Of a DNA stretch of 40,345 nt, positions 15,423 to 34,667 are shown piece after piece. A program made the position numbers and the translations under genes. The DNA is taken from the NCBI GenBank assembly GCA_015068925.1, contig SVJP01000004.1, forward strand, positions 1 to 40,345. The letters run 5' to 3'. Position 1 is the first letter of the stretch, and the number at the start of each line of letters is the position of its first letter. Origin of the DNA: Oscillospiraceae bacterium. Lineage in GTDB: Bacteria > Bacillota > Clostridia > HGM11514. The notes beneath the pieces are model-generated. The model did not search any database. It saw only the letters and a program-made list of their open reading frames with translations, and was not told where the DNA came from.

Positions 15423-15451
15423 ATTATATTATAAATTCATACATTTGTCAA
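15423..15451 (-). promoter_or_regulatory. Sigma-A promoter for the NSS transporter
   Basis: Minus strand TTGACA, 17 nt, TATAAT. Confidence 0.65.
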
Positions 15452-30997: not shown

Positions 30998-32188
30998 TCA
31001 GGAGTGAAGTTTTTGATACAAATCAGGAAAAGGTTCTAAGCTTCTGGACAAAATCCCCTTCATATAAGCAATGGCAATGCCGTAGTTGGTAATGGGAATT
31101 TGCTCATCCTTTGCGGATTTCTGGCGGTATTTCATTTCCCGTGCATTGAGCATACATCCACCGCAATGAATCACCATCTTATATTGGGATAACTCTTCGG
31201 GAAATTCCGTTCCGCTGCAGAAAACAAACTCGGGGTTTACCCCTGTGTATTCCCGAATCCAATTGGGCAGCTTCACCGTTCCAATATCCTCGCATTGGCG
31301 GTGATGGGTGCATCCTTCCGCAATCAAAATCTTATCTCCATCCTTCACAGTATCCAATGCCTTGACCCCTTGGACGGTCAATTCCAAGTCTCCTTTTTGC
31401 CGTGCCATTAAAATAGAAAAGGATGTTAAGGGTGCGACCCCTTTTGTCAATTTTGCAACCATCCCGAATACCTGACTGTCGGTAATTACAAGTTTGGGAT
31501 TGGGGTATTTTTTTAATGTTTCTTCCAGCATAGTTTCTTTTACCACGATTGCCGCCGCATCTGCATCCAACAGAGCACGGATGGTTTGTTGCTGAGGTAA
31601 AATCAACCGACCCTTGGGAGCAGAAGCGTCGATGGGTGTGACCAAAATCGCCGTATCTCCCGATTCTACCAACCCCTCTATCGGAGAGGGAAGTTGTTGG
31701 GGTTTTGCCAAATGCACAAGGGTGTTTTTCAAAGCTTCTATTCCTTCTCCCGTTACAGCGCTGACCGATAGTGCACCCTCGGGTGCCTTTGCCAAATCTA
31801 TTTTGTTATAAACGGTCACATAGGGAATTTTTTTCTCTTCAAAGAGGGAAATCCATCGTTGCTCCATTTGGGAAATGCCCCGTGATGCATCTACCACCAA
31901 AACCGCTACATCGGTTTTATTCAAAACCTGCTTTGTTTTTTTGACGCGAAGAGCACCCAATTCTCCCTGATTATCGTCCATTCCTGCGGTGTCAATCATC
32001 ATGACAGGGCCGATGGGAAGAAGCTCCATGGTTTTATAGACAGGGTCGGTGGTGGTTCCCGCCACGTCAGAAACAAGAGCAATATTTTGAGCAGTAACGG
32101 CATTCATAATGCTGGATTTTCCTGCGTTTCGCTTTCCGAAAAAAGCAATATGCACCCTGTTTGCGGATGCAGTATCATTCAAGCTCAT
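30998..32188 (-). CDS. hydF: [FeFe]-hydrogenase H-cluster maturation GTPase HydF
   Basis: FFGKRNAGKSSIMNAV P-loop, DTAGMDD, YNKIDLA; C-terminal CTHHRQC...HCGGC cluster ligands. Confidence 0.94.
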   Translation of the reverse strand: MSLNDTASANRVHIAFFGKRNAGKSSIMNAVTAQNIALVSDVAGTTTDPVYKTMELLPIGPVMMIDTAGMDDNQGELGALRVKKTKQVLNKTDVAVLVVDASRGISQMEQRWISLFEEKKIPYVTVYNKIDLAKAPEGALSVSAVTGEGIEALKNTLVHLAKPQQLPSPIEGLVESGDTAILVTPIDASAPKGRLILPQQQTIRALLDADAAAIVVKETMLEETLKKYPNPKLVITDSQVFGMVAKLTKGVAPLTSFSILMARQKGDLELTVQGVKALDTVKDGDKILIAEGCTHHRQCEDIGTVKLPNWIREYTGVNPEFVFCSGTEFPEELSQYKMVIHCGGCMLNAREMKYRQKSAKDEQIPITNYGIAIAYMKGILSRSLEPFPDLYQKLHS

Positions 32189-32200
32189 ACCCGTTCCTCC

Positions 32201-33619
32201 TTACAGGCGAAAATCACGCTTTCCTTCGCCGATGGCTTTCAGCTTTTCCTTAACCAGTTCTTTGACTTTGGGATTGGGAACCCGTTCAATTTCTCTTTCA
32301 ATCAGCTCATAACCGATTTTTTTGGTGGGTTCGGTTGCATAATCCTCTAAATATTCTTTTAAGGTCATCAACGCATTGGGATGACAACAATTCAGAATTT
32401 GTCCGTTTTTGCAAAGGGTCATAAAACGATCTCCCGTTCTTCCTTCCCGATAGCAAGCGGTACAGAAGGAGGGGATATCCCCCATTTCCATGAGCCAACG
32501 AACCACCTCATCTAAAGTACGATTATCGCTGATGTCAAATTGTGCGGAGTTTTCTTCCTCCGGTTCCTCTTCTGCATAACCGCCTACGCTGGTGCGGGAA
32601 GCACCGCTGATTTGCGAAACTCCTAAATGCAATACTTTTTCACGGCATTCCTTGGATTCGCGGGTGGAAATAATCATGCCCGTATAAGGAACCGCAATAC
32701 GGATACAAGCAATCAGTTTTGCAAAAATATCATCATTAATGCCGTTGTCGAATACATCGGGGTCGATATCATCCGCCCGTTTGATACGAGGAACGCTGAT
32801 GGTATGGGGTCCGACCCCAAACGTTGCTTCCAGATGTTCCGCGTGCATTAAAAGTGCAGCAAATTCATAGCGGTAAAGCTCCAATCCGAACAGTACGCCC
32901 AAGCCCACATCGTCAATGCCCCCTTCCATAGCTCTGTCCATGGCTTCTGTGTGGTAAGCATAATTGTGCTTGGGACCTGTGGGATGCAGCTTTTCATAGC
33001 TTTCTTTGTGATAGGTTTCCTGAAATAAAATATATGTGCCGATGCCTGCCTCTTTCAGCTTGCGGTAATTTTCTACCGTGGTGGCGGCAATGTTTACGTT
33101 CACTCTGCGGATTGCACCGTTTTTATGCTGAATGCTGTAAATGGTTTTGATGCTTTCCAAAATGTATTCAATGGGATTGTTTACAGGGTCCTCCCCTGCT
33201 TCCAACGCCAAACGCTTGTGACCCATGTCCTGAAGAGCAATGACTTCCTTTTTAATTTCTTCTTGAGTCAGTTTTTTTCTCGGAATGGTTTTGTTTTGTG
33301 CATGATAGGGGCAGTAAACGCAACCGTTGACGCAATAGTTGGACAAATAAAGAGGAGCAAACATCACAATACGGTTACCATAAAAATCCTGCTTGATTTT
33401 TGCCGCCAGTTCTTCAATTTCCTTATTTTTTTCAGGAATGTCACAATCCAGCAATACCGCTGCTTCTCTGTGAGAAAGACCTTTGTATTCTCTTGCTTTT
33501 TGTAAAATTTCATCAATCAATGCCTCATTATGCTTGTTTGCCTCTGCATATTGAAGAGTGTCAAGCACTTCCTGATGATCAATAAATTCTTCTGCTTTTT
33601 TGGATTTTGGATTATACAT
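32201..33619 (-). CDS. hydG: [FeFe]-hydrogenase maturation radical SAM enzyme HydG
   Basis: NYCVNGCVYCPYH (CX3CX2C), ThiH-like body, C-terminal CTACYREGRTGDRFMTLCKNGQILNCC (CX2CX22C). ATG 33619 preferred over the track start 33808. Confidence 0.95.
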   Translation of the reverse strand: MYNPKSKKAEEFIDHQEVLDTLQYAEANKHNEALIDEILQKAREYKGLSHREAAVLLDCDIPEKNKEIEELAAKIKQDFYGNRIVMFAPLYLSNYCVNGCVYCPYHAQNKTIPRKKLTQEEIKKEVIALQDMGHKRLALEAGEDPVNNPIEYILESIKTIYSIQHKNGAIRRVNVNIAATTVENYRKLKEAGIGTYILFQETYHKESYEKLHPTGPKHNYAYHTEAMDRAMEGGIDDVGLGVLFGLELYRYEFAALLMHAEHLEATFGVGPHTISVPRIKRADDIDPDVFDNGINDDIFAKLIACIRIAVPYTGMIISTRESKECREKVLHLGVSQISGASRTSVGGYAEEEPEEENSAQFDISDNRTLDEVVRWLMEMGDIPSFCTACYREGRTGDRFMTLCKNGQILNCCHPNALMTLKEYLEDYATEPTKKIGYELIEREIERVPNPKVKELVKEKLKAIGEGKRDFRL

Positions 33620-33884
33620 TTTCTTCTCGTCCTTTCTGTGTTGTTTTGGAATAAACCGCCTTTGCGCTGACTCCCGGTAACCGTCCGATTTTTCCCGAAA
33701 GTGCGCTGATTTCTTCAACGGTGGAGTCAACTGCGATGCTGATGATGGAAATTTCTTTTTCCCGATAGGGAAGCCCCATTCGTCCGATAATGATTGAGCT
33801 GTAATCATGCAAAATGCGATTCAATTGGGTCACCGAGTCGGGGTTTTCTACAATAATGCCGATAATGGCAACTCTTGCTTCCAT
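33612..33884 (-). CDS. TM1266-family putative iron-only hydrogenase system regulator
   Basis: MEARVAIIGIIVENPDSVTQLNRILHDYSSIIIGRMGLPYREKEISIISIAVDSTVEEISALSGKIGRLPGVSAKAVYSK; about 8-nt overlap with hydG. Confidence 0.85.
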   Translation of the reverse strand: MEARVAIIGIIVENPDSVTQLNRILHDYSSIIIGRMGLPYREKEISIISIAVDSTVEEISALSGKIGRLPGVSAKAVYSKTTQKGREENV

Positions 33885-34025
33885 TTTGTTCTTCCTTTCA
33901 AAAAAATATACACCCCTGCCTGAGGGGTGCAAAAAACATGGGTTGTTTTCTTATGCCTCAGACAGTTCTTCAGCGTCAGTTTTGAGCAATCTTTCGGCAA
34001 GGAAATATCCCGACCGTCAGATGGT
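33885..34025 (-). promoter_or_regulatory. Attenuator/riboswitch-like leader of the hyd maturation operon
   Basis: Mutually exclusive pairings: P1 GACGGT(34018-34013)/ACTGTC(33966-33961); antiterminator CTGTCTGAGG(33965-33956)/CCTCAGGCAG(33925-33916); terminator at 33929-33911. Confidence 0.5.
33901..33930 (-). terminator. Terminator-like hairpin inside the 5' leader of TM1266-hydG-hydF
   Basis: Minus strand CACCCCT-CAGGC-AGGGGTG-TATATTTTTTTG. Confidence 0.65.
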
Positions 34026-34031
34026 ACTTTA

Positions 34032-34060
34032 ATTATAAATCATTGTGATTCAATTGTCAA
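34032..34060 (-). promoter_or_regulatory. Consensus promoter of TM1266-hydG-hydF
   Basis: Minus strand TTGACA (34060-34055), 17 nt, TATAAT (34037-34032). Confidence 0.8.
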
Positions 34061-34638: not shown

Positions 34639-34667
34639 TTGACATAGACTCCAATTTATGCTATAAT
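34639..34667 (+). promoter_or_regulatory. Promoter of the 34721 gene
   Basis: TTGACA, 17 nt, TATAAT. Confidence 0.75.

Follow-up and report, generated by a model that had tools for sequence, protein, structure and literature searches.

A very likely transcription attenuator from a widespread RNA hairpin family precedes TM1266 and [FeFe]-hydrogenase maturation genes in Clostridia

The leader of the TM1266–hydG–hydF operon in the 40,345-nt stretch of DNA analysed here (the window) is very likely a transcription attenuator belonging to a widespread family of RNA elements that is absent from Rfam 15. On the evidence of sequence and comparison, four properties characterize the element: a small hairpin module, covariation within it, a position before H-cluster maturation genes, and complementarity between the module 3′ strand and the terminator. 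The best reading is that of an unclassified OFF-type attenuator family, the sign of the control being deduced from the anatomy. As judged by sequence matches, the same hairpin is found ahead of H-cluster maturation genes in numerous bacteria from gut and soil. The features of the leader and operon are as follows.

34032–34060, minus strand: sigma-A type promoter, TTGACA-17-TATAAT, 12 of 12 consensus matches
33988–34022, minus strand: 5′ module AUCUGACGGUCGGGAUAUUUCCUUGCCGAAAGAUU, outer half-site intact (CUGA/AAAG), inner half-site degenerate
33947–33981, minus strand: 3′ module AACUGACGCUGAAGAACUGUCUGAGGCAUAAGAAA, the putative switching copy, inner half-site intact (GAA/UGA)
33956–33965, minus strand: antiterminator 5′ strand CUGUCUGAGG, overlapping the loop, inner UGA and P1′ of the 3′ module
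33931–33951, minus strand: A/U hairpin AGAAAACA-ACCCA-UGUUUUUU, a spacer internal to the antiterminator, seen in the leader folds
33916–33925, minus strand: antiterminator 3′ strand CCUCAGGCAG, overlapping the terminator 5′ arm and loop
33902–33929, minus strand: intrinsic terminator CACCCCU-CAGGC-AGGGGUG and U-tract, stem 33929–33911
33615–33884, minus strand: TM1266-family gene, first of the operon (TIGR03959, 3.7e-33; PF21699; homologue of PDB 2NZC)
32201–33619, minus strand: hydG, overlapping the TM1266 stop (TIGR03955, 6e-285)
30998–32188, minus strand: hydF (TIGR03918, 7e-162)

A preliminary description of this DNA had proposed a perfect promoter and a leader under riboswitch or attenuator control ahead of hydrogenase maturation genes. 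The promoter does match the consensus at all 12 positions, and a leader of ∼140 nt follows it on the minus strand, ahead of TM1266–hydG–hydF. By motif count over the whole window, there are three perfect TTGACA-17-TATAAT promoters in 40 kb, compared with 0.06 expected; the others lie at 15423–15451 (minus strand) and 34639–34667 (plus strand). The maturation context holds as well, since NCBIfam supports the identities of TM1266, HydG and HydF. The operon (30998–33884) consists of these three genes, without hydE. A divergent gene for an ECF transporter S component (PF07155; 34129–34617, plus strand) directly faces the leader, and in related operons of other genomes an ECF S gene lies downstream of TM1266.

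The minimum free energy fold of the full leader (−41.5 kcal/mol, fold z-score −2.9) contains the 10-bp antiterminator that had been proposed, 33965–33956 with 33925–33916, and the proposed terminator, CACCCCU/AGGGGUG at 33929–33911 with a U-rich run, is also present. When the terminator is forced, the leader folds at −39.0 kcal/mol. The two states are mutually exclusive and of similar stability, as expected of an attenuator, and the predicted gap of only 2.5 kcal/mol would suit a switch well. The sensor differs from the one first drawn. The long-range P1 (GACGGU/ACUGUC, 34018–34013 with 33966–33961) has a pairing probability of 0.0, and forcing it costs about 9 kcal/mol; those bases are taken up by two local hairpins whose motif is conserved in other genomes. 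Folded without the terminator, the leader gives exactly two tandem hairpin modules. What survives of the initial proposal is therefore a candidate regulatory leader with terminator/antiterminator logic, in which the folded sensor goes with the terminator; the sensor anatomy has had to be redrawn.

The conserved sensor is a 35-nt hairpin with the consensus C-UGA-P1(4)-RAA-P2-loop-P2′-UGA-P1′-GAA-G, present in two copies in the window leader (33988–34022 and 33947–33981, minus strand). Each strand reads 5′-CUGA-NNNN-RAAG-3′, which makes the module a pseudo-two-fold symmetric duplex: a half-site at each end, CUGA/RAAG, comprises a C–G pair, a U–A pair and two tandem G·A pairs, and between the half-sites lies a 4-bp stem of variable sequence. 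The loop is free, and no conserved loop or junction is found, loop length and sequence varying among copies. Both window copies are degenerate, with one clean half-site apiece; in the 3′ module, AUAAG replaces GAAG at the outer half-site. The 5′ module folds on its own at −14.3 kcal/mol. Tandem modules with 5–18-nt linkers recur in other genomes. Clostridium-type leaders (L035, L049, L055, L149, L152, L157, L168, L172 and L187) carry a variant, UGAnnnCAC-GAGGG..CCC-RAGUG-RNAAGGCGG, that scores weakly with both covariance models used here, R1 and R2, and with these variants the family probably extends beyond the copies counted here.

The module was first spotted by eye in the TM1266 leaders of many Clostridia and then scanned for; in this initial scan, 25% of real leaders scored at least 26, compared with 1.7% of shuffled leaders. 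An alignment, A1, and the model R1 were then built from 30 module copies, none of them from the window. With filters off, the best R1 match in the 40-kb window was 33947–33981 on the minus strand (21.2 bits, E 7e-4), and in the 2.2-Mb genome of the organism this was the sole match at E ≤ 0.5 (E 0.04). The 5′ module at 33988–34022 (minus strand) ranked third in the window with R1 (13.2 bits) and second with R2 (14.5 bits). Across 93 modules, 94.4% of cells were paired compared with 67.8% after shuffling, and double changes numbered 227, whereas shuffled controls had 61 and slid controls no more than 74, as for a conserved, structured sensor of riboswitch type. Because the A1 copies were selected for P1 pairing, the support for the module that does not depend on this selection is its gene association.

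Conservation of the leader at other TM1266–hydG loci had been named as the test that could refute the proposal, and the hairpin module is found there; where covariation of the pairings in TM1266/hydG leaders had been suggested as a check, it is the local module stems that covary strongly, in place of the long-range P1. The preliminary description had also matched the leader to no known riboswitch class, and the Rfam search it called for agrees: with Rfam 15, no family scored above its gathering threshold in the leaders of the window and 20 related loci, and permissive scans of the window, L050 and L131 leaders gave sub-threshold matches only. Because no other genome of the same order belongs to the collection, direct comparison of leader DNA across 99 genomes gave nothing beyond chance-level matches. 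A literature search, which did not cover subscription papers, found no description of a hyd or TM1266 leader RNA, and Rfam and the papers searched contained none of RNA-level control of hydE, hydF or hydG; hydrogenase genes are absent from the main text of the recent surveys of bacterial structured RNAs that were consulted.

The distribution of the element was surveyed in 392 Clostridia genomes, with matches placed against gene positions or by inspection. There were 61 R1 matches of at least 28 bits, up to about 25 of which are training copies. All but three precede TM1266, hydE, hydG, hydF or an aspA–hydF operon; the exceptions lie inside coding sequence (G011 and G116) or in a FecCD leader (G378). 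Matches within coding sequence (G011, G116, G166, G313, G295 and G076) were counted as false positives. The aspA–hydF arrangement, in which the element is followed by an aspartate ammonia-lyase-like gene and then hydF, occurs at L285 (G296) and L299 (G089). The element is also found in operons without hyd genes. It stands upstream of TM1266 with an ECF S component (G055, G110 and G133), and upstream of NMT1/TauT-type ABC importer operons (L357 in G183, L358 in G089, L359 in G233 and L364 in G467), with TM1266 present in L358 and L359 and the importer alone in G183 and G467. Together with a terminator it precedes FecCD-type ABC permease genes (L361/L366 in G499 and L295/L322 in G378); in G499, TM1266 lies just upstream of the FecCD importer, with a separate element ahead of each. 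The gene neighbourhoods of the FecCD-linked elements suggest a connection to iron or cobalamin-type import. At eight loci of one family (L317, L320, L321, L323, L324, L326, L328 and L331; genomes G425, G150, G426, G395, G428, G432 and G431) the layout is nested and antisense, so that a transcript initiated at the element crosses TM1266 in antisense and runs on into hydG.

Two expression platforms occur in the family: in one the module works with a terminator, and in the other it lies directly over the ribosome-binding site of hydG or hydF. Thirteen module copies end 5–16 nt upstream of the hydG start, over the Shine–Dalgarno sequence (SD), and L240 has an SD-covering module at hydF. For 103 modules followed by a terminator-like hairpin, the duplex of the module 3′ strand with its own terminator arm averaged −13.6 kcal/mol, compared with −10.2 kcal/mol (sd 0.24) for permuted partners; the fit of sensor strand to terminator is better within a locus than between loci, as attenuation demands. 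The module 3′ strand is thus shared between the two structures, so that module folding and antiterminator would exclude each other. In the proposed mechanism, an effector would stabilize the 3′ hairpin and make the P2′-UGA-P1′ strand unavailable for the antiterminator; the terminator would then form and TM1266–hydG–hydF would be off. Melting of the 3′ hairpin would allow antitermination, and transcription would pass through. In the SD-type copies, the folded module would hide the SD and the outcome would again be off. Such a leader resembles the OFF-type terminating riboswitches of Firmicutes (such as SAM-I, TPP and FMN), in which the 3′ strand of the sensor is likewise shared with the antiterminator and the folded sensor leads to termination, and which also have an SD-blocking platform; it differs in that the hairpin has no Rfam class, is tiny and two-fold symmetric, and is often doubled. 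The element would behave like an attenuator or a riboswitch, the latter label requiring protein-free ligand binding.

The presence of the element appears to follow TM1266 rather than hydG. Using R2 at a threshold of at least 28 bits and leaving out recognized false positives, we found it in 73 of 194 genomes with both TM1266 and hydG (38%) and in 11 of 42 with TM1266 alone (26%), compared with 3 of 54 with hydG alone (6%) and 1 of 102 with neither (1%). These counts may miss divergent elements, and some genomes are incomplete. The association with TM1266 holds independently of hydG (Fisher p = 1.4e-6 among hydG+ and 4.3e-6 among hydG− genomes, kinship ignored), and may be biased by the choice of TM1266 leaders as seeds for the models. 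All three hydG+ genomes with the element and no TM1266 match are incomplete: the G013 contig stops just past hydG, and G130 and G193 are 65% and 93% complete. At the same threshold no element was detected in many TM1266+ genomes, and no sequence difference was seen between TM1266 proteins with and without the element. TM1266 is a small putative regulator resembling the C-terminal domain of NikR (PRK01002 match; solved homologue PDB 2NZC), but without the ribbon-helix-helix DNA-binding part; R35 is invariant, and the basic residues R4 and K75 are conserved in at least 96% of sequences.

A symmetric site with a free middle and loop, and its tandem doubling, would suit an oligomeric protein, and together with the co-occurrence this two-fold symmetry points somewhat toward TM1266. 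We infer that the most likely effector is TM1266 itself, as an RNA-binding oligomer that controls its own expression, at slightly less than an even chance. Our fuller proposal, that TM1266 recognizes the two-fold symmetric tandem-GA duplex and thereby controls, by attenuation and SD occlusion, its own gene, the [FeFe]-hydrogenase maturases and a few importers, is put forward tentatively. TRAP, HutP and PyrR offer a parallel, as a metabolite-sensing protein would fix the leader in either of two conformations, and such proteins often control their own operon; their RNA signals are different, however, they have no known kinship to TM1266, and the TM1266–RNA interaction is a postulated one.

The main rival, a serious contender that we nevertheless place below even, keeps the same attenuator and makes the hairpin a riboswitch for a small molecule or metal ion (iron, an H-cluster precursor or another nutrient), whose ligand would shut off maturases and importers, TM1266 being merely one of the regulated genes. 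The riboswitch-like anatomy with two expression platforms fits this, and the few copies that lie ahead of ABC importers of the FecCD and NMT1 types or of ECF S components suggest a common solute. Tandem G·A pairs often bind metal ions, and the tandem layout is like that of cooperative aptamers. The guanidine-II (mini-ykkC) riboswitch likewise consists of two small hairpins in tandem, but its loops are conserved (ACGR), whereas here the conserved bases lie in the helix, the loops vary in length and sequence, and Rfam gives no match. The lack of a conserved loop or junction argues against a ligand-binding RNA, a symmetric protein is the better match for two equivalent half-sites round a stem of variable sequence, and few hydG+ genomes that lack TM1266 carry the element (3 of 54). 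An RNA-binding protein other than TM1266, whether ANTAR, LicT-like or unknown, is an improbable effector. The layout, a pair of hairpins of which the second overlaps the terminator, does recall ANTAR targets, but those are defined by two hairpins with hexaloops, A at position 1 and G at position 4; the variable module loops led us to reject that reading, and the regulon here comprises H-cluster genes rather than nitrogen or sugar genes and is presumably off when the hairpin is folded. That the leader is long, holds an ordinary terminator and folds by chance with no switch is very improbable: AT-rich leaders often form alternative hairpins, and one window module is weak (13–15 bits), but independent model matches, covariation, gene association and the permutation test all contradict it.

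The control of H-cluster assembly in bacteria is largely unknown, and the element offers a candidate for control at the RNA level. It is common to many Clostridia and a candidate protein partner is encoded right behind it, which makes the question testable. If TM1266 is the effector, a putative regulator without a DNA-binding domain would acquire a function and its pairing with the RNA would be a new protein–RNA control system; the element would provide a control point for hydrogen production.
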